DNA of 64,000 nucleotides, from assembly GCA_019459285.1 (NCBI GenBank), contig JAIBEL010000073.1, forward strand, positions 1 to 64,000, given 5' to 3'. Every line of letters starts with the position of its first letter. Position 1 is the first letter of the stretch. Source of the stretch: Rhizobium sp. (GTDB taxonomy: Bacteria; Pseudomonadota; Gammaproteobacteria; Burkholderiales; Thiobacillaceae). Under the pieces are notes generated by a model. It had not been told where the DNA came from, made no database searches, and saw only the letters and a list, made by a program, of their open reading frames with translations. Of the stretch, positions 21,155-38,315 are shown one piece after another. The position numbers and the translations under genes were made by a program.

Positions 21155-21776
21155 TCGGCAGCAAACGGTCTTTGTAGTGGACGATGATCAGGCGGCACGT
21201 GAGTCATTGCGCTGGCTGCTTGAGTCGGTTGGCCATCAGGTGTGCTGTCCTGCTTCGGCACTTGAATTCCTTGAAAGCTACGACGGCAGTGTGCCCGGAT
21301 GTCTGGTCCTGGATGTCCGTATGCCCGGTATGGGGGGCCTGGAATTGCAAAACCATCTGCTCGAACGCGGCTGGTGCTTGCCCGTTATCCTCGTCACAGG
21401 GCACGGTGATGTACCGATGGCAGTACGCGCGATGAAAGCGGGAGCAGTCGATTTTCTGGAGAAACCCTATAACGACCAGGTGTTGCTTGAACGTATTCAA
21501 CGCGCGCTTGAATTATGCCGACAGCGTAGCCATGACCACGAGAAATTGGCCGAATTTCAGGCCAGTTTCCAGCATTTGACGTTACGCGAACGGGAGGTTG
21601 CCGCACTCGTCGTGTCCGGCAAGGCGAACAAAGTGATCGCCATCGAACTAGGGTTGAGCCCGAAAACCATCGAGGTGCATCGCGCCAACGTCATGTTCAA
21701 GATGCGCGTGAAATCACTGCCCGAACTGGTGCAGATATGGATGCGTCTGGAAAAGTCGAGTTTGAGTCAGGAGTAG
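21147..21776 (+). CDS. FixJ-type response regulator, second system
   Basis: A 209-residue regulator with the receiver motifs VDDDQ, LVLDVRMPGMGG (phospho-acceptor Asp), VTGHGDVP and EKPY, and a LuxR-type domain with LTLREREVAALV and NKVIAIELGLSPKTIEVHRANVM. Its DNA-recognition helix region is near that of the regulator at 11640, so the two proteins could bind similar boxes. Start and kinase stop overlap, which indicates translational coupling. Confidence 0.93.
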   Translation: MNDRQQTVFVVDDDQAARESLRWLLESVGHQVCCPASALEFLESYDGSVPGCLVLDVRMPGMGGLELQNHLLERGWCLPVILVTGHGDVPMAVRAMKAGAVDFLEKPYNDQVLLERIQRALELCRQRSHDHEKLAEFQASFQHLTLREREVAALVVSGKANKVIAIELGLSPKTIEVHRANVMFKMRVKSLPELVQIWMRLEKSSLSQE

Positions 21777-22480: not shown

Positions 22481-22521
22481 CGTTTACCAATAATACGACC
22501 TAATAAAATTGCGGAGGTTGA

Positions 22522-23331
22522 ATGGAAGCATCCTGGTGGAAAAGCAGCAAGTTCTGGCTGATGTGGGTTGGCTACATAATCGCATTGGCTGCCTGGTACG
22601 CGAGCGTCAAGTGGCTGCCGATCGATTCATTCAATCGTCTGCCCGATCCGTGGTCGGTTGCAAAGGAATGGTTCAGTCCTGATCCCGCTTATGGGATGTC
22701 TATTTTTACCCCGATCTACTACCAGCATATCTTCTACAGCGTTTATCGAGCGACGGCCTCATTTGTTCTCGCAGTCGTTCTGGGTGTTCCACTGGGCATT
22801 CTGATGGCGTGGAGCCCGAAGTTTGATGCGTATGCCTCTGCACTCGTCGGTCTGTTACGCCCCATCCCTCCACTTGCATGGATCCCGCTCGCGATCCTCA
22901 TATTTCCGGGAATTGAGCTGGCTGTTATCTATGTGACTTTCTTGGTTGCGTTCTTTGCCACGGTCATGAACACCTATGTCGGCGTGAAATCCATTGATCA
23001 GGATTATTTCAGGGCGGCTTTGTCACTGGGCTCCAAACCGCGCGATATATTGCGCCACGTGATCGTTCCTGGGGCGCTTCCCAACATATTTACAGGGTTG
23101 CAGATCGCGATGGGCGCTGCCTGGTTCTCTCTAGCCGCAGGAGAAATGATCGCGGCCCAGTATGGGCTTGGCTTCATGATTTTCGAGTCTTATAACCTGA
23201 TCCAGTTTCCGACGATCGTGATTGGTATGGCCACGCTCGGCATCGCGGGTTATGTAAGCAGTGCAATCATTCGCGTAGTGGGAAATAAGCTCATGCGCTG
23301 GCGTGTACAAAGCTTTGGGATAGGGGGTTGA
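22522..23331 (+). CDS. ABC importer permease 1 (nitrate/sulfonate/taurine type)
   Basis: A 269-residue inner-membrane permease of the SsuC/TauC class with about six helices. It has the typical stretch GLLRPIPPLAWIPLAILIF (near residues 111-129) and the coupling-loop region AALSLGSKPRDILRHVIVPGALP near 170. An AATTGCGGAGG ribosome-binding site precedes the ATG. It is the first gene of a five-gene importer operon with two permeases, two ATPases and one binding protein. Its closest relative in the window is the permease half of the fused protein at 45739. Confidence 0.9.
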   Translation: MEASWWKSSKFWLMWVGYIIALAAWYASVKWLPIDSFNRLPDPWSVAKEWFSPDPAYGMSIFTPIYYQHIFYSVYRATASFVLAVVLGVPLGILMAWSPKFDAYASALVGLLRPIPPLAWIPLAILIFPGIELAVIYVTFLVAFFATVMNTYVGVKSIDQDYFRAALSLGSKPRDILRHVIVPGALPNIFTGLQIAMGAAWFSLAAGEMIAAQYGLGFMIFESYNLIQFPTIVIGMATLGIAGYVSSAIIRVVGNKLMRWRVQSFGIGG

Positions 23332-23333
23332 TC

Positions 23334-24230
23334 ATGGGAGCAACTGATGCATTGAGCGCGGTCGCCAAGTCAGCTGAAACATCCCGGACGGCGATGGCGC
23401 CACGGCCAAACGAAGGCCGTCTTTCTATACAGCATGTAAGTAAGATTTACGATCCGCGCGGAGCACGTGTGGTCGCTGTCCAAGATGCAAGCATGGAAAT
23501 CGAACCTGGGGATTTCGTTGCGATCGTAGGGCCGTCCGGCTGTGGAAAAAGTACATTGATGAACATCATTGCCGGGTTCGACAATGTGACTGAAGGACAG
23601 GTGTTGCTGGATGGCCAGCCACTGGCGACAGTGAATATGCCGCCAAAACCGGGCTCTGATCGAGTCGTCGTTTTTCAGAATGGGGCGCTGTTTCCATGGA
23701 AAACCGTCCTTGAAAACGTCATGTACGGACCTGTGATTCAAAACATGATGACGCATGCTCAGGCAGAGGAAAGAGCGATGGATCTCCTCGCCAAATGCGG
23801 CGGCCTGGACAAGGTGGCGGCCTGTTATCCCCCTCAACTCTCTTCAGGGATGCAGAGACGTGTCGAAATTGTGCGGGCACTGATCAACGAACCCAAGATC
23901 CTCTTATTGGACGAGCCATTCCGTGCAATGGATACGGTCTCAAAGACGGTCATGCACCAGCATTTGCTGGAGATGTATCGGGTATGTCGCAAGACAATCG
24001 TTTTTATCACACACGATCTGGAAGAGGCGATCTATCTGGCGGACAAGGTCGTCGTGATGACTTCACGCCCCGGTACGATCAAATCGATTATCCATGTGAA
24101 TCTGCCTAGACCGCGTACGCCAAACATGATGCTGAGTGCGGAGTATCTGGCATTGAAGGCCCAGGCGATTGCAGGTGTGCACGAAGAAGCCAAAAAGGCT
24201 TTCGAGCGCGGCGAACGTGAACACGCATAA
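23334..24230 (+). CDS. ABC importer ATPase 1
   Basis: A 298-residue ATPase with a 25-30 residue N-terminal extension. It has Walker A GPSGCGKST near residue 66, the Q-loop in VFQNGALFPWK, a signature LSSGMQRRVEIVRAL (LSSGM in place of LSGGQ), Walker B ILLLDEPF and the switch histidine in ITHDLEEA. The C-terminal tail IAGVHEEAKKAFERGERE is shared with the ATPase at 47061. The ATG at 23334 overlaps nothing but follows the permease stop by two bases. It energises the permease encoded before it. Confidence 0.92.
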   Translation: MGATDALSAVAKSAETSRTAMAPRPNEGRLSIQHVSKIYDPRGARVVAVQDASMEIEPGDFVAIVGPSGCGKSTLMNIIAGFDNVTEGQVLLDGQPLATVNMPPKPGSDRVVVFQNGALFPWKTVLENVMYGPVIQNMMTHAQAEERAMDLLAKCGGLDKVAACYPPQLSSGMQRRVEIVRALINEPKILLLDEPFRAMDTVSKTVMHQHLLEMYRVCRKTIVFITHDLEEAIYLADKVVVMTSRPGTIKSIIHVNLPRPRTPNMMLSAEYLALKAQAIAGVHEEAKKAFERGEREHA

Positions 24231-24241
24231 GTGAGAAAAAT

Positions 24242-25063
24242 ATGAAAGCGGCTCAAGAAACCATAAAGACCCCTCTCATGGATCAAAACATCAAATCCAA
24301 ATTCCGATGGCCCCAATTCAACTGGCGTGGAGCCATTGCCATCGTCGGTTTTTTTGTTGCCTGGCATTTTTTCGTGAAGCTTGGCGTCCCTGGATTCAAG
24401 GATATCGCCTCGCCTTTTGATGTTCTCAATACCTTCCTGACGCGCTATATCAACAACCCGGAATACTGGAGTTCCTGGGTGTCGAGTTCCAAACGTGTGC
24501 TATACGGCTTCCTGATTGCGCAATTGCTGGGGATTCCCTTGGGCCTGCTGCTTGGAACCCGGGAGGTTTTTCATAACATGGTGTATCCCGTGATTGAAAT
24601 CCTGCGGCCCATCCCCCCGCTTGCATGGGTGCCAATCTCAATTCTGTTCTGGCCGACCACGGAGTCGAGCATCATCTTCATCTGCTTCATTGGCGCCTTC
24701 TTCATCATCGTGATCAATGTTCATGATGCAGTCAGAAGCATCAAGCAGGAACACATCTGGCTCGCACAATCGCTTGGCGCCAGCAGTGGCCAGATATTCC
24801 GTCGCATCATGATTCCTTCGGTGATCCCCTCCATTGCCGTCGGGATGACTCTCGGCATCGCGGTGACCTGGAACGTCGTGATCGCTGCGGAAATGATATC
24901 GGGCGGCAATGGACTGGGACGGCTGACCTGGGAAGGGTATGTAAGCCACACAGTCACGGTGGTCATCATCGGCATGATCAGCATCGGACTAGCCGGTTAT
25001 CTGTCGACAATTGGTGTCGACTATCTGGAAAAGAAAATGATGCCGTGGCGCGTCGTTCGTTAA
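24242..25063 (+). CDS. ABC importer permease 2
   Basis: A 273-residue permease of the SsuC/TauC class with an N-terminal cytoplasmic stretch of about 25 residues, then about six helices. Recognisable parts are LRPIPPLAWVPISILFWP near residue 120, LAQSLGASSGQIFRRIMIPSVIP near residue 173 and AEMISGGNGLGRLTW near residue 217. The last motif is the clean version of the region that carries a glycine-serine insertion in the paralogue at 47930. It pairs with the second ATPase, encoded next. Confidence 0.9.
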   Translation: MKAAQETIKTPLMDQNIKSKFRWPQFNWRGAIAIVGFFVAWHFFVKLGVPGFKDIASPFDVLNTFLTRYINNPEYWSSWVSSSKRVLYGFLIAQLLGIPLGLLLGTREVFHNMVYPVIEILRPIPPLAWVPISILFWPTTESSIIFICFIGAFFIIVINVHDAVRSIKQEHIWLAQSLGASSGQIFRRIMIPSVIPSIAVGMTLGIAVTWNVVIAAEMISGGNGLGRLTWEGYVSHTVTVVIIGMISIGLAGYLSTIGVDYLEKKMMPWRVVR

Positions 25064-25077
25064 AGGGAGACATCAGG

Positions 25078-25875
25078 ATGGAGACGATGGCACTAAGCGG
25101 AGAGTTGGTGGCGACAGGACTGCGCAAGTGGTATCACCCTAAAGGGCAGGCACCAGTGCACGTGCTTGATGATTGCTCCTTCAAAATCGAACCGGGAAAA
25201 CTCACGGTCGTGATGGGGACGTCGGGGTGCGGGAAATCAACGCTCGCCTATATTTTATGCGGCTATCTCAATGCGGATGGCGGGCAAGTAACCATGGATG
25301 GCCAACTCGTCAAAGAGCCTGGATCGAGCCGCCTCATGGTGTTCCAGGAAACGGCGTTGTGGCCCTGGATGACCATTCTTCAGAATGTCGTTTTTGGTCC
25401 ATTGGCCAAATCCAGCATCAGCAAGGAAGAGGCCACCCGAAAAGCCCTGGAGCTGCTTCGAAAGTTCGGCTTGCTGGAGTTCAAGGATAAATATCCGGGG
25501 CAACTCTCGGGAGGGATGAAGCGGCGCGCAGAGTTGGCGCAAGCCTTGATCAACAGTCCCAAGGTCATGGTTCTGGATGAGCCGTTCAGAGGCCTGGATG
25601 TCATGACGCGAGAGTTGATGCAGGAGTACTACATCAAGCTGTTCGAAGAAACCCGGCTTACGACCGTATTCATCACATCCGAATTGGAAGAAGCGATTTT
25701 CCTTGCGGATCGCATTCTGATCATGGGTGGAACGCCAAGCAAAATTACGCATGCACTTGAAGTCGATTTGCCGCATCCAAGGACTTTCGATGTTCTGACA
25801 AGCGAACGGTACCTTGAAATAAAACAAGAGGCTCTGGAAGTACTTTATGGGGACAGCATTCAGCATATTTGCTGA
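25078..25875 (+). CDS. ABC importer ATPase 2
   Basis: A 265-residue ATPase with Walker A GTSGCGKST, Q-loop VFQETALWPW, signature LSGGMKRRAELAQAL and Walker B VMVLDEPFRGLD. The switch region reads ITSELEEAIF, with serine where most ATPases have the H-loop histidine (ITHDLEEA in ATPase 1). That substitution suggests an asymmetric ATPase pair. The start at ATG 25078 follows AGGG; ATG 25087 is an alternative. Confidence 0.88.
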   Translation: METMALSGELVATGLRKWYHPKGQAPVHVLDDCSFKIEPGKLTVVMGTSGCGKSTLAYILCGYLNADGGQVTMDGQLVKEPGSSRLMVFQETALWPWMTILQNVVFGPLAKSSISKEEATRKALELLRKFGLLEFKDKYPGQLSGGMKRRAELAQALINSPKVMVLDEPFRGLDVMTRELMQEYYIKLFEETRLTTVFITSELEEAIFLADRILIMGGTPSKITHALEVDLPHPRTFDVLTSERYLEIKQEALEVLYGDSIQHIC

Positions 25876-25942
25876 CGGGTTCCTGGTCGACCGCGAATGC
25901 AGCGCGCGGTATAAATTCGCTTCGCTAATCGGAGGATTAATT

Positions 25943-27037
25943 ATGAAAACGATGTTGAAACTGATGGCTGTCGGCCTGGTGGCAAGCCTGCTAGTTGGCG
26001 GACAAACGGGGGCACGCGCCGAAGGACCAGCGAACATTACCTATGGGTACCATCCCTACTGGACGGGTGGCTGGAGCGGCGTGATCATCAAAGAAAAAGG
26101 ATTGTGGAAAAAATATCTTCCACCAGGCAGTACGGTTCGCTTCGAACCGCAGCTTACCGGCCCGCCCATGGTAGCGGCATTGCTCTCCAATAAAATGCAG
26201 ATTGGCACAATGGGCGACATGCCCTCACTCGTGGCAACGACCAAATACACGGTTTCCGATGTCCGCTTGGTTTCAGTCCCGATGTACAGCAATGGACAAG
26301 TCTGCAACAAGATCCTGGTAAGCAAGAACGCACCGCAGTTCAAGGACTATAAGGAAGCCATGAAGTGGATGACGGGTCGTCCTTTTGCCGTTCACAAGGG
26401 TACCTGCGCAAACCGCTTCGTGGAATCCATCATTGATCAGGGGGCATTCAAACCGTCCGAAATCCTCAGCATGCCAATCGAAGTGATTGCCAGTAACTTT
26501 GAGGCAGGGAAACTTGATGCCGCCGCGATGTGGGAGCCGCATGCCCGCAGACAGGTGGAACTTGGAAATGCCCGATATGTCGCAACAGGCGCACCTTGGA
26601 ATGAAAGTGATGCGGACTTCACGCTGATGCGCCAGGATTTCATCGAGCAGCATCCCCAGGCGGCTGTCGGCTGGATCAAGGCTGAGATCGAGGCAGTCCA
26701 GTTCATGGCCAAGTACCCCAAAGAAACGGCTGATATCATCGCGAAAGAGTTGACAGGCTACACTCCGAAAACTGCCTGGCTGGCACTGTATGAGGAGAAC
26801 CCTGCTTCAATCGGCGGGGACCCGGTGAATTACGTGGGCAAGATGGTCTTCGACAAGGATGTCATCAACCTGATGAACAAGGGATATGCTTTCTTGAACA
26901 AGCTCAAGGTTACCAATATGCCTGGCATGCCCCCGCATCCTATTAATGATGGCCCCGTTAAGCAAGCTTTGAAAGAGATGGGGCTTACGGCCCCGGTTGC
27001 AGTCATCAAAGGCATGCCGGAGAGCGCATACAAATAA
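25943..27037 (+). CDS. Periplasmic binding protein of the SsuA/TauA/NrtA class
   Basis: A 364-residue protein with a signal peptide (about 1-28, ending ARA). The ATG at 25943 has a CGGAGG ribosome-binding site. The N-terminal part has YGYHPYWTGGWSGVI near residue 33, and MGDMPSL near residue 93 matches binding proteins for sulfonates. The C-terminal end PVAVIKGMPESAYK is nearly the same as the end of the binding protein at 44439, so the two are paralogues. It delivers an unknown solute, probably a small organosulfur compound, to the two permeases encoded upstream. Confidence 0.88.
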   Translation: MKTMLKLMAVGLVASLLVGGQTGARAEGPANITYGYHPYWTGGWSGVIIKEKGLWKKYLPPGSTVRFEPQLTGPPMVAALLSNKMQIGTMGDMPSLVATTKYTVSDVRLVSVPMYSNGQVCNKILVSKNAPQFKDYKEAMKWMTGRPFAVHKGTCANRFVESIIDQGAFKPSEILSMPIEVIASNFEAGKLDAAAMWEPHARRQVELGNARYVATGAPWNESDADFTLMRQDFIEQHPQAAVGWIKAEIEAVQFMAKYPKETADIIAKELTGYTPKTAWLALYEENPASIGGDPVNYVGKMVFDKDVINLMNKGYAFLNKLKVTNMPGMPPHPINDGPVKQALKEMGLTAPVAVIKGMPESAYK

Positions 27038-27109
27038 TAAACACGGTGCGGTCGTGGCAATGTTATCTCGACCGTGCCGGTATTTTCATTTTTTACGAGA
27101 AGGGCAGTG

Positions 27110-27511
27110 ATGAGCAAGCATTACGCCACTTGTTCCTGGACACCTGAGGCGGGTTATCAGGCCAAGACACCTTATGGTGAAATCAAGATGTTTGAAGAAG
27201 ATGGGCATCGTGCAGTCGAGTTGATGTTGCTCGCTGCTGCGGCCTGTCTGGATTATTTTCTAGCTGAATATGTACGCGAACGTAAGCTTCCCGTGACACG
27301 GCTTCATGTGACTTGCGATGGTGAAATCAGTCCTTATCCGGAACGTGTGTCCGCGATCAGGACGACTGTCAAGATAGAGGGTGGGCTGAGTGAAGCAGAA
27401 GAACTCAAGATGGTCGGCATGTGCGAGCGTGCCTGTAAAGTCATGAACACGTTCAAGCATTCGCCTCAAATCCATGTCGCCATCGAACACATGCCTGCAT
27501 TGGCCCGGTAG
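27110..27511 (+). CDS. OsmC-like protein, first copy
   Basis: A 133-residue protein of the OsmC/Ohr-like fold. The start is the ATG at 27110, after AGGGCAG. One conserved cysteine lies in AAACLDYFLAEY near residue 46 and a second region ERACKVMNTFKHSP near residue 111 has the place of the C-terminal catalytic cysteine. OsmC-type proteins act on peroxides or thiol-containing compounds. It directly follows the importer operon and is followed 29 bases later by a lipoyl-carrier gene, so it probably works with imported sulfur compounds. Its substrate is unknown. Confidence 0.82.
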   Translation: MSKHYATCSWTPEAGYQAKTPYGEIKMFEEDGHRAVELMLLAAAACLDYFLAEYVRERKLPVTRLHVTCDGEISPYPERVSAIRTTVKIEGGLSEAEELKMVGMCERACKVMNTFKHSPQIHVAIEHMPALAR

Positions 27512-27540
27512 CAGATCGGCACATTAAAAGGAGAAGAGAG

Positions 27541-27933
27541 ATGATGCCTGCAGACTATCTATGCCATAAAGAACACCTGTGGGCCAAGCCACTAGGGGAT
27601 AACGTGGTCCTGGTTGGTGTTACCCACTATGCGCAGAATAACCTGGGCGAAGTTGTTTACGTGGAGTGTCCCAAAGCGGATACCGAGATCCGTCAGGATG
27701 TCGCTTTCGGAATCGTCGAGTCGGTCAAGATTGTGTCCGATCTCATCAGCCCTGTATCGGGAACGGTGCTTGAGGTGAACGAACAGCTGACAGCTGATCC
27801 ATGTTGCATAAACCGTGACCCGTATGGTGAAGGATGGCTTTTGAAGGTTCGACTTCCGGATAACGGTGGGTTGGACGGATTGATGTCTGCGACAGACTAT
27901 AAAAAATACACGTCAGGCTCGGACGACGCATAG
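27541..27933 (+). CDS. GcvH-like lipoyl-carrier protein, first copy
   Basis: A 130-residue protein of the glycine-cleavage H-protein / lipoate-binding protein fold. The lipoyl lysine is at residue 63 in VESVKIVSDLISPVSG. GEVVYVECPKADTEI near residue 37 and NRDPYGEGWLLKV near residue 92 are typical H-protein segments. No GcvT or GcvP gene is in the window, so a role in glycine cleavage is unlikely. Lipoate-binding proteins (LbpA) serve the sulfur-oxidising Hdr-like pathway in other bacteria, but no Hdr-like genes are visible here either. The short spacing to the OsmC-like gene supports one unit. Confidence 0.85.
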   Translation: MMPADYLCHKEHLWAKPLGDNVVLVGVTHYAQNNLGEVVYVECPKADTEIRQDVAFGIVESVKIVSDLISPVSGTVLEVNEQLTADPCCINRDPYGEGWLLKVRLPDNGGLDGLMSATDYKKYTSGSDDA

Positions 27934-28508
27934 CTTGTCGTCTGTCGATTTTTCCATCTCTCACGCGTACCAAGCAGTCCGTTACTTTTTCTGCCTGGTT
28001 TTTTTCGTAACCGTTGTGACAGTCCGATATGTATAACTATTATCTGGATCTGTCAGATACATTATTTCCAGGCGCTGGTCTGTATTGGCCGGCACTGTCA
28101 TCGCAGTATTCGATATAGGCCGATCGGCCAATATAAGCCACCTTCGAACATCGCACTGAACTTCGGTCTACGTTTTCCGGACTGCGAGTCCTTGTTGGCA
28201 GGTGCCGGTTCGAGATGCTTGGCCTCGGGGGCCTGTTTTTCACGACCCTCAATCTCACGTATTGCTGTTTTCGAGCAGGCCGGTGTTGCTCGTGCACCGC
28301 ATCCGGAACCTGAAAAAATTTCCAATGCTCATTTCTGGATACAGCGCGGTATTTCTGCCGTGGGAATGAGATTTCTCTGTATAGGGATTGTACTTAAGCG
28401 GATACGCGCTCATCCGTATGTTTTCTTCCGGCGTAATGCCCTTTAATTCAAGCTAAGGCATACGACGTCGTGTGCTATGGACTTCCACTTATTTAAAGGA
28501 GATCAAAC
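27934..28508. other. Non-coding gap between the lipoyl protein and the second OsmC-like gene
   Basis: No gene could be supported in these 575 bases. A minus-strand open frame of 75 codons at 28098-28325 exists, but I do not recognise it and codon use is unconvincing. An inverted-repeat sequence GGCCGATCGGCC lies near 28119. A T-rich stretch (TTTTTTTCG) near 28002 could end the upstream operon. An AAAGGAG ribosome-binding site for the next gene is at 28495. Confidence 0.4.
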
Positions 28509-29051
28509 ATGTCGCAAGAGACCGTCAAGGCCGCCCTGATGCAAGCCATAGCAGGCATCCAAGGCAACCCCGGTGCCGCCAAGGTGGTGTTCCGTGCCGA
28601 TACCCAGCTGGAAGAGGATGTGCGCTGCAGCGCCAAAGTGCGCGATTTCGCGCCGATCATCGTCGACGAGCCGCCCGATCTGGGCGGGGCCGATGCGGCG
28701 GCCAATCCGGTCGAGCTGTTGCTGGTCGCCCTGGGGGCCTGCCAGGAAATCATGTACAGCGCCTATGCATCGGTCATGGGCATCCAGCTCAACAGCGTCA
28801 AGGTGAATCTGCGCGGCTATCTCGATCTGCGCGGCTTGTTCGGCATGGATGCCGCCGTCCCGCCGGGCTATCAGAAGATCATTTTCGAAACTACGGTGGA
28901 CAGCCCGGCCGATATAGAGACCCTGAAAAAGCTGGTGGAAACGGTGGAAAGCCATTGCCCGGTGCTGGATACCTTGGTGCGCGCCATCGAGGTCAGCGGC
29001 CAAGTCACCCTCAATGGCCAACTTATGGAGGTAGGCGCCGTGCCTGCCTGA
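28509..29051 (+). CDS. OsmC-like protein, second copy
   Basis: A 180-residue OsmC-family protein with AANPVELLLVALGACQEIMYSA near residue 66 (first conserved cysteine) and VESHCPVLDTL near residue 146 (second conserved cysteine). The family uses these two cysteines for thiol or peroxide chemistry. It has an N-terminal extension relative to the first copy at 27110. It heads a unit with lipoamide dehydrogenase, a GcvH-like protein and a rhodanese, which repeats the OsmC plus lipoyl-carrier pairing seen at 27.1-27.9 kb. Confidence 0.87.
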   Translation: MSQETVKAALMQAIAGIQGNPGAAKVVFRADTQLEEDVRCSAKVRDFAPIIVDEPPDLGGADAAANPVELLLVALGACQEIMYSAYASVMGIQLNSVKVNLRGYLDLRGLFGMDAAVPPGYQKIIFETTVDSPADIETLKKLVETVESHCPVLDTLVRAIEVSGQVTLNGQLMEVGAVPA

Positions 29052-29110
29052 TCTAGAGAAGTCATCCACCCGGTGCCACATGGCCGGGCGGATGACGAAG
29101 GAGTCATAGC

Positions 29111-30526
29111 ATGACCAAACATATCGCGATTGTCGGCGGCGGCCCTGCAGGTTATGTGGCGGCGTCGCACGCCGCTGCAGAAGGCGCGCAAGTAACGCTG
29201 ATCGATCCGCATCCGCTGGGGGGAACGTGCCTGCATCGCGGCTGCATCCCGACCAAAACCCTGGTGGAAGTCTGCAATCTGCTCGAGAAAATGCGCCGCG
29301 CCGAGTCCTATGGCTTGCATCTGTCCGGCACGGTGGAGCCGGACTGGCCCGCAATGCGTGCCAAGGCAGGCAAGGTGATCGGCCTGCTCAATACCGGCAT
29401 CAATAGCCTGATGGCAGACCGTCGCGTGGTTCATGTACAAGGGCGTGGCCGCGTCCTGGACGGACATCGCGTGGAGGTGACGGGCCATGGCGTGATCGAG
29501 GCGGATGCCGTGCTGATTTGTACAGGGTCCAGCCCGATATTGCCGGAAAGCTTTATTGCCGACCGTGCCCGCGTAGTGACCAGCGACGATTTGTTGCATT
29601 GGGATACTTTGCCGAGATTCCTGCTTATCGTCGGGGACGGCGTCGTGGCGTGCGAGTATGCATTCATCATGAATGCGCTTGGCGTACAGGTCACCCTCGT
29701 CGCCATGGGCGAGCGTCCCTTGCCCTTCATCGACAGCGATATCTCTGCCGTCGTCCAGCGTGAAATGCGCCGGCGGGGAATCGAATTCATCAACAAGTGC
29801 GCAGTGGAAAGCCTGATGGCCATTCCGGATGGCGTGGTCGCTCTTGCAAACGACAAGGTTGTAGCCAGTGCCGAGCGCGTGCTGGTTGCGATCGGCCGGC
29901 GTCCCAACACGCATGGCATGGGTCTGGAGGAAGCGGGCGTCGAACTCGGCCCTCGAGGCGAAATCGTGACGAATGGCTTCATGCAGACCGGACTGGATGG
30001 CCTGTATGCGGTAGGTGATGTCAACGGCAGACTGGCCTTGGCGCATGCCGCCTCGGCCCAGGCGCGGCTGGCGGTGGATCACGCCCTCGGCCTGGAATGT
30101 GCACCATTGGATGAATCGGTCATTCCCTGGGCCGTGTTCACCATGCCCGAGATTGGCTGTGTCGGCATGACCGAACAGCATGCCATCGAGAAAGGCCATG
30201 CCGTCAGCGCAGGACGATTCGACCTGCGCGGCCTCGGCAAGGCGCAAGCCATGAGCGAATTGACCGGGATGGCCAAGGTGGTGACCGACCGCGTCAGCGG
30301 CCGCCTGCTCGGCGTTCATATCATCGGTGCCCACGCATCGGACATGGTTCATGAAGCCGCGGTGCTGCTACGCCAGGGCGCCACCGTCCATGCCATCACC
30401 CAAACCGTCCATGCCCATCCCACGCTTTCGGAAGCCATACACGAGGCGGCAGAGGATGCGCTGGGACAGGCTGTACATAAACCCATGAAACGAAAAAAGA
30501 CACATCATGCCGACGCATTACCCTGA
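29111..30526 (+). CDS. Dihydrolipoamide dehydrogenase-like flavoprotein
   Basis: A 471-residue enzyme with FAD-binding GGGPAG near residue 9, the redox-active disulfide GGTCLHRGCIPTK near residue 37, NAD-binding region GDGVVACEYAF near 176, GDVNGRLALAHAASAQ near 303 and the C-terminal catalytic histidine region HAHPTLSEAIHE near 436. It should oxidise the dihydrolipoyl group on a carrier protein with NAD. It does not sit next to pyruvate or oxoglutarate dehydrogenase genes. Its partner genes are a GcvH-like carrier that starts inside its last codons, an OsmC-like protein and a rhodanese, which points to a dedicated sulfur role. Confidence 0.9.
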   Translation: MTKHIAIVGGGPAGYVAASHAAAEGAQVTLIDPHPLGGTCLHRGCIPTKTLVEVCNLLEKMRRAESYGLHLSGTVEPDWPAMRAKAGKVIGLLNTGINSLMADRRVVHVQGRGRVLDGHRVEVTGHGVIEADAVLICTGSSPILPESFIADRARVVTSDDLLHWDTLPRFLLIVGDGVVACEYAFIMNALGVQVTLVAMGERPLPFIDSDISAVVQREMRRRGIEFINKCAVESLMAIPDGVVALANDKVVASAERVLVAIGRRPNTHGMGLEEAGVELGPRGEIVTNGFMQTGLDGLYAVGDVNGRLALAHAASAQARLAVDHALGLECAPLDESVIPWAVFTMPEIGCVGMTEQHAIEKGHAVSAGRFDLRGLGKAQAMSELTGMAKVVTDRVSGRLLGVHIIGAHASDMVHEAAVLLRQGATVHAITQTVHAHPTLSEAIHEAAEDALGQAVHKPMKRKKTHHADALP

Positions 30527-30902
30527 AGACCGTCTCTATCATCGCGACGCACTCTGGCTGCAACTGCTGGAAGGCGACGAAGCCTTGGTTGGAATCAATC
30601 ACCATGCCCAGGACAGCCTGGGCGAAGTCGTGTTTCTCGATCTGCCGCGCGCCGGTACGGCCATTTGCCATGACACGCCCCTGGGTACGGTCGAATCGCG
30701 CAAGGCCGTGTCAGACATGATCGCCCCGGTCGATGGCACGGTACTGGAAGTCAATACCCGGCTGCGCAATGAGCCCACCCTGATCAACAGCGACCCCTAC
30801 GGAGAAGGCTGGACGTTGCGCATTCGCCTGACCTCGCCAGGCGAGACCGGGCATCTGCACGACGCCGCGGCCTATCTCTCGCTCATGGGTTTGAGCGATT
30901 GA
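30507..30902 (+). CDS. GcvH-like lipoyl-carrier protein, second copy
   Basis: A 131-residue H-protein-fold carrier with the lipoyl lysine at residue 66 in VESRKAVSDMIAPVDG, and segments SLGEVVFLDLPRAG and NSDPYGEGWTLRI that match the first copy at 27541. The start codon lies inside the end of the lipoamide dehydrogenase gene, which strongly suggests that the two products work together. As for the first copy, no glycine-cleavage partners are present. Confidence 0.87.
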   Translation: MPTHYPEDRLYHRDALWLQLLEGDEALVGINHHAQDSLGEVVFLDLPRAGTAICHDTPLGTVESRKAVSDMIAPVDGTVLEVNTRLRNEPTLINSDPYGEGWTLRIRLTSPGETGHLHDAAAYLSLMGLSD

Positions 30903-30932
30903 ATAATTCACACCCGAACCAAGGAACATGAA

Positions 30933-31328
30933 ATGAATTTTACGACTCAGGAATTGATCGCCCAAGCCAAGAGCCACATCGTCGAATGGGATGCGGCCAC
31001 CGCAGCACGTGAGCTGGCCGCCCGCCGTGACATCGTGCTGCTCGACGTGCGCGAACCGGCCGAGTTCAGCGAGGGATGCATCGGCAATGCCTGCAATGTC
31101 CCGCGCGGCGTGCTCGAATTCAAGGTCGACCCCAGCTACCCGGCCTGCGAGCAGGCCTTATTGGATCGCAACCTGGAGATCCTCGTGTACTGCAAAACCG
31201 GCGGACGCAGCGCCCTGGCTGCACACACACTCAAGCAGCTTGGATATGGCAAGGTGATTTCGCTCGCCGGCGGCATCGAATCATGGAAGGGAAGCGGCTT
31301 CAATGCCGCTGTGCCGCAGGCTTGCTGA
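30933..31328 (+). CDS. Rhodanese-domain sulfurtransferase
   Basis: A 131-residue single-domain rhodanese with LLDVREPAEFSEGCIGNA near residue 33, catalytic cysteine in LVYCKTGGRSALAAH near residue 87 and the closing LAGGIESWKG. The N-terminal 20 residues are an extra helix. It is the last gene of the OsmC/Lpd/lipoyl-carrier unit, 30 bases after the carrier gene, and would move sulfane sulfur to or from those proteins. Confidence 0.9.
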   Translation: MNFTTQELIAQAKSHIVEWDAATAARELAARRDIVLLDVREPAEFSEGCIGNACNVPRGVLEFKVDPSYPACEQALLDRNLEILVYCKTGGRSALAAHTLKQLGYGKVISLAGGIESWKGSGFNAAVPQAC

Positions 31329-31442: not shown

Positions 31443-32147
31443 TCAGCAGCTGGGAACCAGCCCGCTGTACCGGCTGATCGGTATGCAGGCGGTTTTTTCG
31501 CCGACCGCCTGGCGATAGCCGCCTGGCCCGAAGCGGGCGATGAGGTCGGCCTTGTAGGTTGTGAAGAAACGTTTGATGTAGGCCATGCCCATGATTCCGT
31601 CGGCAGACAGTTCGTCGGTGCCCGGGTCATAGACCAGACGGACCGGCATCAGGGGCATCGGGGCCGGCCCAATCACGACCTTGGCGCCATCGGCGGGATC
31701 GTACACGCTGCCATGCGCGCAGCACACGATCCTGCCGGGGCCGCCAGCCAATTCGCTGCCGCTGGCCGCATAGCGCAGATAGGAGACCTTGGGCTGGGGA
31801 TAGCTCATCTGGTGGGTGCAGATGGCCACGAAGGCCACGAACTGTCCCTTGGGGCCTACTCCTCCCTGCCAACGGTAATCACCCTCTTCATTTTTCAGGG
31901 CGATATTCGGCTTGGCGGACCGATCTCCCAGATTGATCAAGAAGCAGGGCACACCCGCGAGTGGGTAGGAAAACACCAGCGCCTCGCCGGTGGGAATGGT
32001 CGCTCCCTTGAGCGGGGTGCCGGATTGATCGGTCAGTTTGGCGGCGGCAAATGCCTCGAAGTCGGCGGCAACAGCCATCCGGCCCCAGTTGGCCGAAGCC
32101 AGCGCAGCGCTACCTGTGCACACCTTCACGAATCCACGTCTGTCCAT
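31443..32147 (-). CDS. Tat-type exported Rieske [2Fe-2S] protein
   Basis: A 234-residue protein with an N-terminal twin-arginine-like signal (MDRRGFVKV, then a hydrophobic stretch to about residue 28). The Rieske ligands are CTH near residue 111 and CCAH near residue 143, with a long spacer of about 29 residues between the His and Cys ligands. It ends with a C-terminal extension that includes FFTTYKADLIARFGPGGYR. It lies downstream of a sulfide-dehydrogenase-like flavoprotein, so it may accept electrons from it in the periplasm. An intrinsic terminator stands between the two genes, so expression may be reduced or independent. Confidence 0.8.
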   Translation of the reverse strand: MDRRGFVKVCTGSAALASANWGRMAVAADFEAFAAAKLTDQSGTPLKGATIPTGEALVFSYPLAGVPCFLINLGDRSAKPNIALKNEEGDYRWQGGVGPKGQFVAFVAICTHQMSYPQPKVSYLRYAASGSELAGGPGRIVCCAHGSVYDPADGAKVVIGPAPMPLMPVRLVYDPGTDELSADGIMGMAYIKRFFTTYKADLIARFGPGGYRQAVGEKTACIPISRYSGLVPSC

Positions 32148-32171
32148 CTTGTTTTGTTCTCCCGCAGGAAA

Positions 32172-32191
32172 AACCGCCCCGAAGGGCGGTT
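32172..32191 (-). terminator. Intrinsic terminator after the flavoprotein gene
   Basis: An 8-bp stem (AACCGCCC at 32172-32179, GGGCGGTT at 32184-32191) with a four-base loop. Read on the minus strand it is followed by a short T run. It lies between the flavoprotein and Rieske genes. Confidence 0.75.
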
Positions 32192-32224
32192 GTATCGGTT
32201 ACCGATGAGACCCGGTATTCCGGA

Positions 32225-33580
32225 TCAGGCGTTAAACATGTCGCGATAGATGCCGCGTGCCCATTCCAGCGTTGCCTCGCCTTTGGCGGCATCACGGTTC
32301 TCGAAGGTCTTGGTGTCCTTGGAGAAGCCCGTGATGATGTCCTTCTCGGTGCTGTAGTCGTAGCTGGCATCGACGCTGATGGCTTCCATCGGATTGGCAT
32401 TCACCATCGAGTAGCAGATGGTGCGCGGACTGACCCAGGAGATCTCTTTGCCCTGCGCGCGTGCCGCCAGCACCTTGGCGATGAAATGGCCTTCGGTATT
32501 GGAAGTGTTGGCGCTCTTGGAATAGGGATGCGGACGCGAGTCGCCGGTCACGTAGACATGGGGGTCGCCGATGATGTTGTAGAAGCGGGTATCGATATGG
32601 GCTTCCTTCTGATTGCTCTTGCTCGATGGCGCCATCAAGCCGAGATGCTCGATCAGCATGGAACCGCGTACGTTGGCATAGATGGCCGCGTCGTCGAACT
32701 TGTATTCATCGAATTCGGTCTTGATAATTTTCCTGTCCACATCCACGCCCGTCACTGCCTTGGATGGCAGCCATTCGATGTAATCCCGGTACAACTCATT
32801 GAAGGCCGCATGGAAGCCATCCTTCTTGATGGTGATTTCCGGATTGGCATCCAGCACCAGAACCTTGCCCTTGACCTTGTTCTTTTTGAAGGTCGAGGCG
32901 AGCAGGCAGGCGCGCTCGTAGGGGCCGGGCAGGCAGCGGTAATTGCCGGACGGCACGGTTTGCACGAAGACGCCGCCTTCGAATTCCTTGACCTTGCGAT
33001 GAATGGTGACGTGTTCGGTAGGCGAGATGAAGCCACCCGGATAGACCTGGCGCAGAGCGGTCATCGTGTCCACGTCCGTTACGCCGATCTTGTCGTAGTC
33101 GTACGAGATGCCAGGTGCCAGGACCAGGAAATCATACTGGATGTCCCCCTCGTTGGTGGCCAGGAGCCGGCTGTTCCGATCCAGGCCGGTTACCGTCGCG
33201 TTGAAATAGGTGTAATTGTTGTTGACGGCCGCGTCCAGAAAACTGTGGTCGGCCAGGAATTCCAGGTTGATGAGACCGGCGTACCACAAGTTGCTGGAAA
33301 AGCAGGACGAATACATGTCGCGTTTCTCCACCAGCACCACGTCAAATTTCGGATATTCCTTCTTGGCGTATTTTGCGATGGTCAGGCCGGAGGTGCCCCC
33401 CCCAACAACGACCAGGCGCGGACCCCTGGCTTTCGGGAGTGCTGCCATGGTGCGGGTGGCAATCGCAGGTGCGGCGTTGGCCATGGTCGATCGCGCCGTG
33501 CCGGCAAGACCCGCCGTACCCGCAGCGAATATGGCGCCGCCCATTTTCATGAAATTACGTCTACTGTTATTCCCTTCCAT
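32225..33580 (-). CDS. fccB: Flavocytochrome-c sulfide dehydrogenase flavoprotein-like protein
   Basis: A 451-residue protein with a twin-arginine-like signal (SRRNFMKMGG) and an FAD-binding VVVGGGTSGLTIAKYAKK near residue 57. Cysteines in the expected places for sulfide chemistry are GNYRCLPGPYERA near residue 217 and RTICYSMVNANP near residue 386. An extra cysteine lies in SSCFSSNLWY near residue 92. The C-terminal FCSD-type flavin region follows. FccB oxidises sulfide in the periplasm and passes electrons to a cytochrome; no cytochrome partner lies next to it here, but a Rieske protein does. It would remove the sulfide made by methanethiol oxidase, encoded upstream on the same strand. Confidence 0.85.
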   Translation of the reverse strand: MEGNNSRRNFMKMGGAIFAAGTAGLAGTARSTMANAAPAIATRTMAALPKARGPRLVVVGGGTSGLTIAKYAKKEYPKFDVVLVEKRDMYSSCFSSNLWYAGLINLEFLADHSFLDAAVNNNYTYFNATVTGLDRNSRLLATNEGDIQYDFLVLAPGISYDYDKIGVTDVDTMTALRQVYPGGFISPTEHVTIHRKVKEFEGGVFVQTVPSGNYRCLPGPYERACLLASTFKKNKVKGKVLVLDANPEITIKKDGFHAAFNELYRDYIEWLPSKAVTGVDVDRKIIKTEFDEYKFDDAAIYANVRGSMLIEHLGLMAPSSKSNQKEAHIDTRFYNIIGDPHVYVTGDSRPHPYSKSANTSNTEGHFIAKVLAARAQGKEISWVSPRTICYSMVNANPMEAISVDASYDYSTEKDIITGFSKDTKTFENRDAAKGEATLEWARGIYRDMFNA

Positions 33581-34064: not shown

Positions 34065-34604
34065 TCAGGCATCGGGGTCGTACATGTCATGGCGAATGCT
34101 GTTCCGGTTGGCGATTAATTCGTCGATGCCAGGTTCGTCGTTAAGCGCGCGTTGGATTGCGAGTTTGGTTGCTTCGTAGTTGGTGCGATAGAGATCCTTG
34201 TGATCAAGATTGGGATCGGTCGCGCAACGCGGATCGATCCATACCAGGCTGACGATGCACAGATCGTTGACCTGGTCGCGCGGCAGGATGCCTTCGATCA
34301 CGCAGTCCAGCACGGCATCGGCCGTGGCGGCCTGGACCGTGCCGCCGAACAGGTCGACGTAGGCCATGCTTTTCATGGTGACCTTGGGCACCATCAGGGT
34401 GGCGGGACGCACCTGCTGGTTGCAGGCCCGGATGGCGAACATGCGGGTGTGGCCTGCGGTCTGTCCCATCATGTTGGCGAAGGCGTGCCCGACGGGTCCA
34501 TCGACGCTGCCGATCAAGATTTCCGGCATGGCGTCGGTGAACTGGCCTTCCCGGGCGAGGACGGTGGCTTCGCCCGTTTTGAAAATGATCGTGTTGTGGT
34601 CCAT
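34065..34604 (-). CDS. fae: Formaldehyde-activating enzyme (Fae) homologue
   Basis: A 179-residue protein with recognisable Fae segments: ILIGSVDGPVGHAFANMMG near residue 30 (with the catalytic histidine in GHAF), RPATLMVPKVTMKS near residue 66 and AVLDCVIEGILP near residue 100. Fae condenses formaldehyde with tetrahydromethanopterin. The N- and C-termini differ from canonical Fae, so it may be a Fae2/Fae3-type paralogue. Its place in the methanethiol oxidase operon makes sense because that enzyme releases formaldehyde. The tetrahydromethanopterin genes at 62.8-64 kb supply the cofactor. Confidence 0.88.
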   Translation of the reverse strand: MDHNTIIFKTGEATVLAREGQFTDAMPEILIGSVDGPVGHAFANMMGQTAGHTRMFAIRACNQQVRPATLMVPKVTMKSMAYVDLFGGTVQAATADAVLDCVIEGILPRDQVNDLCIVSLVWIDPRCATDPNLDHKDLYRTNYEATKLAIQRALNDEPGIDELIANRNSIRHDMYDPDA

Positions 34605-34862: not shown

Positions 34863-36068
34863 TCAGGGTCGCCTGGCGTTGATCTGGCTCATGAATGTAT
34901 CGCTGGGATCGTGCTCCGGGATCGGCAGGTTTTCCGGGGCTTGCCGCGCATCACGCTCCAGTGCAGCAACATTGTCGCCGGTCAGGCTCTTCAGGAAGGC
35001 GACGAGCGCCGACTTCTCATCCGGCGTCAGATTCAGGCGCACGATCAGAGGCGATTTCTCCGGGTTGTCGATCCCGCCCTTGTCGTAGAAATCGACGACT
35101 TCCTCCAACGTGCGCAGCGAACCGTCATGCATATAAGGAGAGGTCAGTTCCACGTTGCGCAGAATGGGAGTCTTGTAGGCCCAGCTGTCTTTCGGGTTGA
35201 ACGTGACTTCGTAGCGCCCTACATCAGGCAGCGGCGGTTCGAACGACTTGAGGTGCTGGGCATTCACGTCGACGAATACATTGGGCGCAAGTTGTACGCG
35301 ATAGGTCGTGCGTTCGGGGAACATGGTGCGCTCCCAGCCCAGCCCTGTGTTGTGGAATTTGTGATCGGTGAACAGCGCACTTTTCTCGCCCACCGAGTGG
35401 CAGGCGACGCAGCGTCCTTTGCCCATGAACACCTGGAAGCCGCGCTGCTCCGTGGCGTTCAGTGCATTCTTCTCGCCGCCGTAGTACCAGCGGTCGAAGC
35501 GGGAGTTGCCGGAAACCAGCGTGCGCTCGTAGCTGGCGATGGCCTGGCCGATGCGCTCCGCCGTGACCGGGCCATTGAAGGCCGCCTCGAACATGCCCTT
35601 GTATTCGGGCAGCTGACGCACTTTCTCGACGACATAGCCGATGGCCGGCATGTCCATTTCATTCTTGGTCAGCAGCGGCCCCCAGATCTGGTCTTCCAGA
35701 TGCGGTTCGCGCCCTTCGAGGAACAGACTGCGCTGGTAGCCCACGTTGAACATGGTGGGGGAATTGCGGCGGTGGCTACGGCCTTCCATGCCGATGGCGG
35801 CGCCCAGTTCATGGGAGGTGAAACCCTGCTCGGGCACGTGGCACATGCCGCAGGACATGGTGTTGTTGTGGGAGAGCCGTCGATCCATGAACAAACGACG
35901 TCCGAGATCGATCTTTTCTTGGGTCAGAGGGTTGGATGCAGGAATAACGAGGGGTGGCAGGCCAAGCGGAATAGGCAGATTGACTGGGGTGTCGGCACGT
36001 ACGATGGGTGATAGGGAGGACAGCACGCTGGCCATCGAGAGCCAGCGCAGGGCACGAATTACTTTCAT
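34863..36068 (-). CDS. MauG-like di-haem cytochrome c peroxidase
   Basis: A 401-residue exported protein with a signal peptide (about 1-25, ending VRA) and two haem-c sites: CGMCH near residue 97 and CVACH near residue 238. The fold matches the bacterial cytochrome c peroxidase/MauG family. In known methanethiol oxidase operons a MauG-like protein and an SCO protein follow mtoX and are thought to mature the enzyme; this gene order is the same. Its start overlaps the SCO stop by four bases. Confidence 0.92.
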   Translation of the reverse strand: MKVIRALRWLSMASVLSSLSPIVRADTPVNLPIPLGLPPLVIPASNPLTQEKIDLGRRLFMDRRLSHNNTMSCGMCHVPEQGFTSHELGAAIGMEGRSHRRNSPTMFNVGYQRSLFLEGREPHLEDQIWGPLLTKNEMDMPAIGYVVEKVRQLPEYKGMFEAAFNGPVTAERIGQAIASYERTLVSGNSRFDRWYYGGEKNALNATEQRGFQVFMGKGRCVACHSVGEKSALFTDHKFHNTGLGWERTMFPERTTYRVQLAPNVFVDVNAQHLKSFEPPLPDVGRYEVTFNPKDSWAYKTPILRNVELTSPYMHDGSLRTLEEVVDFYDKGGIDNPEKSPLIVRLNLTPDEKSALVAFLKSLTGDNVAALERDARQAPENLPIPEHDPSDTFMSQINARRP

Positions 36069-36820
36069 GGCAGGTTGATACCTTCTTCCATTAGCAAAGT
36101 GAGAATGTCGTTGTAGACGACATCGGGCGACAGATAAGCCGTGGTGTAGATCTCCCGGATGACATGGTTGCGGTCGATCAGGAAAACTTTCAACACATGG
36201 CTCAAGGTGCTGAGCGGTTTCTTGGTGACAGGGTCGACATCGATATAGACGTCCTGGCCGTATGCATCGAGTATCGGGATGAGATCATGGAGCGATGCCG
36301 TGGTGAGAAAGTCCCACGGCGCGCCACGACTGGCGTTTCCACTGTCTCCTGCATAAAGTTTGAGGACTTCCGGAGTATCGCGTCTCGGATCGAAAGAAAG
36401 GCTGACGAGGCGGATGCTCCCCTTGAATTCCGGATGCCTTTCCAATCGGTTTTGCAGGTTATGGAACACCAGATACGCAAAAGGGCAGCCACTCGGATCG
36501 GCACAGCTCGAGTAGATGAAGGACAGCAGCGTGATCCTACCCCCGGTGAATTCGGAAAGTGAGCGCGCTTTGCCGTCGATGTCCAGTACCTTGCCATCGG
36601 GCGCGGTTTTGATGTCATAAAGTTTGTAGCTGCCTGGCGGACTAGGCTTGAAGTCCATGACCACGCCAGCTTGTTCGGTGATTTGCTGGGACTGATTGGT
36701 GTCGGCAGCGTTGGCGGCACAGGCACCCGCCAAGGCGAACGTCAGGAGCAGGGAAAAAAAACCGCCCCCCCGCAAGGGGGGGCGGAGAGCCCCAACAATG
36801 TAAGCGCTCTGTTTGGACAT
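36065..36820 (-). CDS. SCO1/SenC-like copper chaperone with altered Cys spacing
   Basis: A 251-residue SCO-family protein. The thioredoxin-like core has the conserved later histidine in LSHVLKVFLID near residue 203. The copper-binding cysteines read SSCADPSGCPFAY near residue 105: five residues lie between the two cysteines instead of the usual three (CxxxC). The N-terminal export signal is encoded across a perfect GC hairpin followed by eight T, which looks like a terminator. The ATG at 36820 starts four bases after the mtoX stop. It probably delivers copper to methanethiol oxidase. Confidence 0.87.
   Translation of the reverse strand: MSKQSAYIVGALRPPLRGGGFFSLLLTFALAGACAANAADTNQSQQITEQAGVVMDFKPSPPGSYKLYDIKTAPDGKVLDIDGKARSLSEFTGGRITLLSFIYSSCADPSGCPFAYLVFHNLQNRLERHPEFKGSIRLVSLSFDPRRDTPEVLKLYAGDSGNASRGAPWDFLTTASLHDLIPILDAYGQDVYIDVDPVTKKPLSTLSHVLKVFLIDRNHVIREIYTTAYLSPDVVYNDILTLLMEEGINLP
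36754..36785 (-). terminator. Terminator-like hairpin inside the SCO signal-peptide codons
   Basis: A perfect 10-bp GC stem (36762-36771 with 36776-36785) with a four-base loop, followed on the minus strand by eight T (36754-36761). This is a textbook intrinsic terminator in shape, but it lies about 35 bases inside the SCO reading frame, right after mtoX. It could cut down transcription of the downstream maturation genes relative to mtoX. Confidence 0.8.
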
Positions 36821-36824
36821 CAAA

Positions 36825-38213: not shown

Positions 38214-38315
38214 ATCGGTCTCCTTATCTTTGAACGGACAAACGTACAAGCGCAACGCTCCTGATAAATCCAATAATTCGTTGGGAGGCTAGAGCGAAGG
38301 TCGCGCCTTACGTGA

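Follow-up and report, generated by a model that had tools for sequence, protein, structure and literature searches.

An OsmC and lipoyl carrier gene module linked to methanethiol oxidase in Thiobacillaceae: a known kind of redox system, of unproven function, in a new setting

The DNA considered here, which we call the window, comprises the opening 64 kb of C38, a contig of 222.5 kb from a 3.38 Mb Thiobacillus genome. Its nearest named relative is Thiobacillus thioparus DSM 505, and the genus consists of sulfur-oxidising autotrophs. The window holds two gene groups, units A and B, in each of which a protein of the OsmC family is encoded beside a GcvH-like lipoyl carrier (OsmC1 with LCP1, and OsmC2 with LCP2). 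Unit A also comprises an ABC importer, and unit B a dihydrolipoyl dehydrogenase (Lpd) and a single-domain rhodanese (Table 1). An earlier note, written from the sequence of this DNA, had proposed that six of these genes form a new sulfur or one-carbon (C1) pathway, an interpretation that is partly supported. All six are present and intact at, or very near, the positions it gave and pass the Pfam cut-offs, and the sulfur and C1 context without partners from the sHdr (sulfur-oxidising heterodisulfide reductase-like) or glycine cleavage systems at the locus stands; ‘new pathway’ is too strong, because a relay of lipoyl carrier, Lpd and OsmC has precedents.

That note did not name the main link. 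The strongest neighbour is a methanethiol oxidase operon, mtoX-SCO1-mauG, which lies on the opposite strand 3.5 kb from unit B (5.5 kb when counted to mtoX itself), and within the family the distribution of OsmC2 and the carriers tracks that of mtoX, although not strictly. The first base of the window is also the first base of the contig, and our view of the surroundings therefore covers the downstream side only.

Table 1. Position and supporting evidence of the features discussed
Feature	Position	Strand	Evidence
FixL/FixJ-like sensor kinase (PAS) and LuxR-type response regulator	19877..21776	+	Pfam PAS, HisKA, HATPase_c; Response_reg, GerE
Unit A (importer-OsmC1-LCP1)	22522-27933	+	
Importer of unit A, with an SsuA-like binding protein and two pairs of permease and ATPase	22522..27037	+	permeases and ATPases named by eye
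SsuA-like binding protein of unit A	25847-27037	+	SsuA_fam 100.8 bits, under cut-off 163.5; PF13379 NMT1_2
OsmC1, OsmC-like, YhfA type by alignment	27110..27511	+	PF02566 45 bits; alignments; fold match to OsmC/Ohr
LCP1, GcvH-like lipoyl carrier; lipoyl K63; C8, C43, C88, C89	27541..27933	+	PF01597 127 bits
Terminator-like hairpin closing unit A	27920..27944	+	consensus scan only; 9 pairs, then TCGATTTTTC
Unit B (OsmC2-Lpd-LCP2-rhodanese)	28509-31328	+	
OsmC2, OsmC-like, YhfA type by alignment	28509..29051	+	PF02566 68 bits; NF041052 OsmC_like_Se 90 bits, cut-off 95
Dihydrolipoyl dehydrogenase Lpd	29111..30526	+	TIGR01350 459 bits, cut-off 408.8, equivalog level; Pfam pyridine nucleotide-disulphide oxidoreductase
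LCP2, GcvH-like lipoyl carrier; lipoyl K66	30507..30902	+	PF01597 112 bits
Single-domain rhodanese	30933..31328	+	PF00581 72 bits; loop Cys C87 (VYCKTGGRS) intact
Rieske-like protein and FCSD-like flavoprotein	31443..33580	-	PF21706, PF09242; Rieske 19.7 bits, cut-off 20.3; SoxL2-like below cut-off
Formaldehyde-activating enzyme Fae, between unit B and operon	34065..34604	-	PF08714 202 bits
mtoX-SCO1-mauG methanethiol oxidase operon	34863..38273	-	three genes
MauG/MbnH-like	34863-36068	-	under the cut-offs of those models
SCO1	36065-36823	-	PF02630
MtoX	36825-38273	-	NF052453 744 bits, cut-off 650
Rieske oxygenase alpha/beta, reductase, ferredoxin and complete SsuA-type importer (second importer)	40765-49693		

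Two separate units and their relatives

The two OsmC-plus-carrier units seen by the earlier note do exist, but they are separate modules, 575 bp apart, that occur independently in relatives, and the importer behind which both had been placed belongs to unit A only. Relatives were sought in 117 Thiobacillaceae genomes, the window's own counted in. The genomes G259 and G260 carry unit B and mtoX without OsmC1; in G259 the counterpart of window positions 21746-28507 is missing and unit B follows directly on the sensor kinase pair, which also lies directly 5' of unit B in G258, G218 and G256. Unit A is found without unit B, in the stretches examined, in the Thiobacillus metagenome-assembled genome (MAG) G297, which has no OsmC2 anywhere at E<=1e-20, and at L069, from a MAG whose lineage is not placed. 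T. thioparus DSM 505 (G301) carries both.

Eight copies of unit B were examined, with OsmC2 and LCP2 in all eight, Lpd in seven and the rhodanese in five; the gene set of a lipoyl-linked OsmC relay, an Lpd and an intact-lysine carrier adjoining OsmC, is present with Lpd in seven of the eight. The CxxxxC motif of the window's Lpd (C40, C45) is intact. As the earlier note had observed, the carrier starts inside the dehydrogenase gene, 20 nt before its end in the window, and the same overlap is seen in G259, G260 and the second DSM 505 copy; these are all four of the copies in which it is resolved, out of seven Lpd-bearing copies examined, the lpd stop and LCP2 start being unresolved in the main DSM 505 copy, G256 and G218. 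The five genes compared, a set that leaves out the rhodanese, are under purifying selection: dN/dS (NG86) against G260 is 0.06/0.63 for OsmC2, 0.04/0.56 for Lpd and 0.07/0.52 for LCP2, and for OsmC1 and LCP1 it is far below 1 against DSM 505.

The second copy in DSM 505 is a diverged unit (L151 = G301:C2:18001-38000, positions 6315-12944) with a CMD-family CxxC protein, a FixL/FixJ-like pair, an OsmC2-like protein, a Phenol_MetA_deg gene, Lpd and a carrier; its OsmC2, Lpd and carrier match at 52%, 71% and 48%. No thiocyanate hydrolase genes were seen near it by eye. The CMD/AhpD-like CxxC protein recurs in the OsmC-carrier cluster of G258 (L152 9523-9855), where it is 86% alike to that of DSM 505 (L151 6315-6647), and was not found in the window or in the other loci compared.

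A scan for OsmC1, with a query built from three close sequences that detects close relatives only, gave three loci, in DSM 505 (99% identity), the Thiobacillus MAG (80%) and a further MAG contig (74%). Beyond the family, 200 genomes of the order yielded OsmC1 itself and one 28% match (E 8e-4), 398 genomes of the phylum yielded it and 25 matches of 19-30% identity, and plasmids gave no match. For the carriers, the phylum set returned the genome's own two proteins at 245 and 224 bits, with the next best at 136 bits, and the sole other match at E<=1e-40 among 135 order genomes (G041) is a gcvH between gcvT and gcvP. LCP1 matched 163 plasmid records, all below 60% identity, and among the matches listed the matched gene, where named, is gcvH. 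Within the samples searched, the module is found solely in Thiobacillaceae and one unplaced MAG.

The neighbours of unit A vary. The Thiobacillus MAG has a cytochrome c and a SoxC-like sulfite dehydrogenase (619 bits, cut-off 420) beside it, and a gene for formylmethanofuran-tetrahydromethanopterin formyltransferase lies 3.3 kb downstream. At L069 three genes lie within 5 kb: one is DmrB-like, one encodes a DUF6513 protein and one a methanofuran-type 4-(hydroxymethyl)-2-furancarboxaldehyde-phosphate synthase (PF04476, 224 bits). The closest solved structures to the binding protein of the unit A importer are sulfonate- and taurine-binding proteins. The hairpin at the end of unit A is weak evidence, because the same scan gives 18 such sites in the region with 9.1 expected.

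Carriers and OsmC proteins

Both carriers keep the lysine at which lipoylation would occur, at residues 63 and 66 as previously noted, in one alignment column that is invariant in the five carriers aligned and retained in all eight unit B copies. In a tree, 12 carriers (four LCP1 and eight LCP2, each forming one group) split from 28 GcvH-like rows with support 100/98. These rows are the genome's own GcvH and 27 phylum loci, which remain of the best 29 after L093 and L099 were dropped for a stop in the matched stretch, and the tree holds no LbpA sequences. Some of the rows are not proven glycine-cleavage proteins, because gcvT or gcvP lies within 1.5 kb at 19 of the 29 loci and not at the other ten, and two of these ten (L075, L080) stand beside FtsE/FtsX-like genes rather than gcvT/gcvP (neighbours named by eye). 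An OsmC gene lies within 3 kb of all 12 carriers, eight in unit B and four in unit A. LCP1 has cysteines at position 8 (6 in two relatives), 43 and 88 in all four copies, LCP2 has none conserved, and 28 of the 29 aligned GcvH-like stretches have no cysteine at all. The predicted structure of LCP1 was too poor to be drawn on (mean pLDDT 53).

Contig C41 holds the genome's own gcvT and gcvH together with a part of gcvP. With the genome's own proteins as queries, tblastn detected neither gcvT nor gcvP nor any Hdr/Qmo-type gene, whether in the window or over the 40 kb of contig that follow it, which agrees with their reported absence from the window; no search was made for 2-oxoacid dehydrogenases, whose absence was asserted in the same place. 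The HdrB-type CCG domain has 11 matches in the genome and none on contig C38. Both glycine cleavage and sHdr were accordingly set back as explanations of the locus. The earlier note would have given up its proposal had such a gene set lain just outside the window; none does within those 40 kb, yet both kinds exist on other contigs of the genome, glycine cleavage on C41 and an Hdr-type set on contig C35 (L113 = G000:C35:20001-36000, positions 6319-11447). This set comprises HdrC- and HdrB-like genes and a pair of HdrA-like flavoproteins, of which the second carries an FlpD domain; we take it to be a QmoAB-HdrCB-like arrangement, and contig C35 has no GCV_H match. The sHdr-LbpA system comes with a lipoate ligase of its own and LipS1/LipS2; the sole PF03099 match in the present genome is BirA-like.

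The conserved cysteines claimed for the OsmC proteins are likewise in place, both window proteins having the two that characterise the Ohr/OsmC family: C46/C109 in all four OsmC1 copies, where C8, C69 and C105 are also kept, and C78/C150 in all eight OsmC2 copies, together with C40. Alignment places a valine in both at the position of the Ohr/OsmC catalytic glutamate, ten residues before the first cysteine, and a glutamate one residue past it, as in Escherichia coli YhfA; the reading as a plain Ohr-type peroxidase was likewise set back. The arginine stretch of E. coli OsmC is gapped in the alignment, an absence that is less sure because identity is about 20%. By this alignment both proteins are of YhfA type and lack the Glu and, less surely, the Arg of the Ohr/OsmC peroxidase triad. 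A model of OsmC1 (mean pLDDT 77) matches OsmC/Ohr folds loosely (TM 0.4-0.6), among them 1ml8, E. coli YhfA, at 20% identity. All eight OsmC2 copies match the NF041052 model, with the window copy under its cut-off. PMC4069020 separates the YhfA subfamily from thiol peroxidases.

A rhodanese gene lies within 1.5 kb of OsmC1-like, YhfA-like genes at eight of the 25 phylum loci (L012-L036), all eight in family f79, which contributes 22 of the 25, and at none of the 29 loci of OsmC2 matches or the 29 of GcvH-like matches; we treat this proximity as a lead rather than a test.

The methanethiol oxidase neighbourhood

All three genes of the methanethiol oxidase operon are present at the locus, with MtoX above its model cut-off. 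The same operon is described for Hyphomicrobium sp. VS (PMC5739008); here the relay genes lie outside the operon as described there, and neither ‘osmc’ nor ‘lipo’ occurs in the main text of that paper. Among the 117 genomes, MtoX is found in 12, OsmC2 in eight (E<=1e-20), the carrier profile in nine (E<=1e-42) and OsmC1 in three. Each of the eight genomes with OsmC2 also has mtoX, and OsmC2 is missing from all 105 mtoX-negative genomes (Fisher p 7e-10, with no correction for kinship; G256 and G257 look like near twins). The nine carrier-positive genomes are the same eight and G297. When the eight less G257 were viewed widely, mtoX lay within 15 kb of unit B in six of seven; in the other, G218, it is on a different contig and Fae adjoins unit B. 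Fae belongs to the same cluster in the window, DSM 505, G259, G260, G256, G258 and G218, and mtoX and/or fae is on the examined stretch for seven of the eight unit B copies. No MtoX was found in viral contigs. The mtoX of DSM 505 (L119, G301:C11) has one TGA in the matched stretch, which may sit in the leader 5' of the true start.

Taken with its further neighbours, the region resembles an island of genes for the catabolism of methylated sulfur and C1 compounds. Further along are TauE, a NuoF-like protein, a formate-dehydrogenase-like molybdopterin oxidoreductase with FdhD and a DmrB-like protein below cut-off; TauE, FdhD and the oxidoreductase are encoded in the window. Beside the FCSD-like flavoprotein (31443-33580) stands the Rieske-like protein, and no cytochrome subunit gene was noticed; DSM 505 has this flavoprotein at 97%, despite the report in the T. 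thioparus genome paper that soxEF was not found. T. thioparus strains Tk-m and E6 are reported to grow on dimethyl sulfide and dimethyl disulfide, a trait given as not known for the type strain (PMC5248467).

G260 has the oxygenase and second importer module, DSM 505 has it up to the limit of the stretch examined, and the G259 stretch lacks it. Methanesulfonate as its substrate is a guess; the module was considered as a methanesulfonate monooxygenase, but no NCBIfam model passed its cut-off for the six proteins scanned, and it was left unnamed. It includes two fusions, of a cyclic-nucleotide-binding domain with an ABC permease (45739-47061; PF00027 and PF00528) and of a Rieske ferredoxin with a cyclic-nucleotide-binding domain (43452-44303; PF00355 and PF00027). 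DSM 505 has the ferredoxin fusion at 97% and, where its stretch ends, the start of the permease fusion (68 residues, 97%); G260 matches the whole permease fusion at 94%.

A possible dihydrolipoyl relay and its alternatives

We give not quite an even chance to the reading that units A and B specify a dihydrolipoyl relay in the cytoplasm that is devoted to the catabolism of one-carbon sulfur compounds. Lpd would reduce the lipoyl arm of the carrier with NADH, the carrier would in turn reduce the paired cysteines of the OsmC-type protein, and this protein would split an S-S bond, whether in methyl disulfides, in mixed methyl-S-S-protein disulfides derived from methanethiol, or in sulfane sulfur delivered by the rhodanese. 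Methanethiol oxidase would take up the methanethiol released, the cell's oxidation of sulfide the sulfide, and Fae the formaldehyde; unit A would do the same job for a C1 sulfur anion taken up by its own importer. We infer a flow of electrons from NADH through Lpd and a presumably lipoylated carrier to OsmC because Ohr is reported to be reduced by lipoylated proteins (PMC5962072) and the OsmC of Trichomonas to take electrons from lipoate by way of L and H proteins (PMC7946386). The target is probably S-S bonds (methyl disulfides and sulfane sulfur), which are likelier than peroxides because the catalytic Glu is missing, mtoX is linked, and a rhodanese and extra cysteines are present. We also count in favour of the relay the co-occurrence of OsmC2 and the carriers with mtoX, the separate group that the carriers form in the tree, the cysteine pair kept by both OsmC proteins, the conserved gene overlap, the cysteines of LCP1, the position of unit A near C1 and sulfite genes and the CMD-family CxxC protein of two copies; methanethiol oxidases of three Rhodobacteraceae are reported to have yielded sulfane sulfur (PMC10936201).

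Several known systems come close to such a relay. In the hydrogenosomes of Trichomonas vaginalis, where the glycine cleavage system is incomplete, OsmC is likewise reduced by way of Lpd and a GcvH-like lipoyl protein (Nyvltova et al. 2016, as cited in PMC7946386 and PMC10332631), whereas here the genes form a bacterial cluster with mtoX, with OsmC proteins of YhfA type, two carriers and an importer or rhodanese attached. The Ohr/OsmC peroxidases of Xylella and Chromobacterium share the family, the two cysteines and the dihydrolipoyl reductant, but in the window's proteins the alignment has the catalytic Glu replaced and the Arg stretch absent, and a carrier and Lpd of their own adjoin. LbpA of the sHdr system is, like LCP1 and LCP2, a GcvH-like lipoyl carrier of a sulfur oxidiser outside glycine cleavage; here, by contrast, the locus has no hdr genes and Lpd stands beside the carrier. 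LbpA has two strictly conserved cysteines, one near each end (PMC6067878). LCP2 has neither; LCP1 has one near the N-terminus (8 or 6) and C88, with none near the C-terminus. The YhfA subfamily shares the cysteine pair and the glutamate one past that of Ohr, and is here linked to lipoyl carriers; of two related NCBIfam families, OsmC_like_Se (NF041052) is just missed by OsmC2 and GcvH_rel_desulf (NF045810) far missed by LCP1 (41 bits) and LCP2 (33 bits, cut-off 150). A dihydrolipoamide dehydrogenase of Methylophaga thiooxydans is reported as increased on dimethyl sulfide and was assigned to 2-oxoacid complexes and glycine cleavage (PMC6548844). Our literature search, which left subscription journals mostly outside, found no description of an OsmC-lipoyl carrier gene cluster with methanethiol oxidase.

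Several observations weigh against a dedicated relay. Four of the 12 mtoX genomes (G251, G217, G231 and G236) lack an OsmC2 or carrier ortholog at the E limits used, and G297 has unit A and its carrier without mtoX, in a MAG that is 87% complete. The second T. thioparus unit B is on an mtoX-less contig, with no mtoX or fae match in the surrounding 48 kb, Lpd is absent from the G258 copy and the rhodanese from three copies, and we know of no function or activity for YhfA-type OsmC proteins. The MtoX of the window has a leader and the relay genes have no obvious one (both judged by eye), and because of this difference, and because MtoX is reported to be periplasmic (PMC5739008), the two would act in different compartments.

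The same chain of NADH, Lpd, lipoyl carrier and OsmC might instead end at a hydroperoxide, as a defence against the H2O2 that methanethiol oxidase is reported to release. The reduction of Ohr by lipoylated proteins (PMC5962072) fits such a role, as do the CMD/AhpD-like neighbour in two copies and weak matches of seven of the eight OsmC2 copies to the SACOL1771 peroxiredoxin model (28 bits for the window, cut-off 166). We nevertheless think it unlikely, if worth keeping in mind, in view of the valine in place of the catalytic Glu, the YhfA-like alignment with its gapped Arg stretch, the distinctness of the YhfA subfamily from thiol peroxidases (PMC4069020), one study in which Rhodobacteraceae MtoX gave no H2O2 (PMC10936201) and the reported periplasmic location of MtoX. 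Were the electrons to run the other way, the carriers would act in sulfur oxidation as LbpA does, though without sHdr: OsmC or rhodanese would load sulfane sulfur or a methylthio group on the dihydrolipoyl arm and Lpd would recover the electrons as NADH. LbpA itself, with its proposed Lpd step to NAD+, and a report that rhodanese of Thiobacillus A2 acts on dihydrolipoate (cited in PMC6067878) are precedents, and the rhodanese of five copies and the extra cysteines of LCP1 would suit it. The absence of a CCG/HdrB match from contig C38, the want of a conserved cysteine in LCP2, a unit that shows no enzyme for the oxidation step, and a DsrK-like gene on contig C8 (below cut-off), which hints at sulfur oxidation by the reverse dissimilatory sulfite reductase pathway, make us regard this as distinctly unlikely.

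A role in C1 transfer, in which the dihydrolipoyl arm would trap formaldehyde as a hydroxymethyl thioether for delivery to Fae and tetrahydromethanopterin, much as GcvH carries its aminomethyl group, would fit the seven clusters with Fae and the two MAGs in which unit A has, respectively, a tetrahydromethanopterin formyltransferase gene and a methanofuran-type synthase gene nearby. It is very unlikely: tblastn found no GcvT-like gene at the locus, OsmC, for which we know of no C1 role, accompanies all eight unit B and all four unit A copies, and Fae functions elsewhere without a carrier. That LCP1 and LCP2 are ordinary spare H proteins of glycine cleavage seems to us most improbable. Both pass the PRK01202.1 cut-off, and LCP1 alone passes that of TIGR00527 (LCP2 114.2, cut-off 115.85), but the genome has its own GcvH in gcvT-gcvH-gcvP on C41, the two group apart in the tree, and all 12 carriers have OsmC close by, with no gcvT or gcvP in the window by tblastn.

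The dihydrolipoyl relay can be given a narrower form, in which Lpd, LCP2 and OsmC2 are the NADH-dependent reductase for dimethyl disulfide and methyl mixed disulfides of thiobacilli that degrade methylated sulfur compounds, OsmC being the catalyst and the lipoyl group a swinging arm, with unit A a version for an imported C1 thio-anion. Smith and Kelly are reported to have found an NADH-linked dimethyl disulfide reductase in T. thioparus E6 in 1988; a literature search on the enzyme name returned no Thiobacillus paper by title. We put this form forward as speculative and rather doubtful.

If the broader relay is true, lipoic acid would serve the sulfur cycle in a further way, in addition to its parts in sHdr, glycine cleavage and 2-oxoacid dehydrogenases, and a reductant and a class of substrate could be assigned to the orphan OsmC proteins of YhfA type. 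The public type strain T. thioparus DSM 505 has both units, and the idea is therefore directly testable. The relay would also supply a missing step in the breakdown of methanethiol and dimethyl disulfide, gases relevant to climate and odour.

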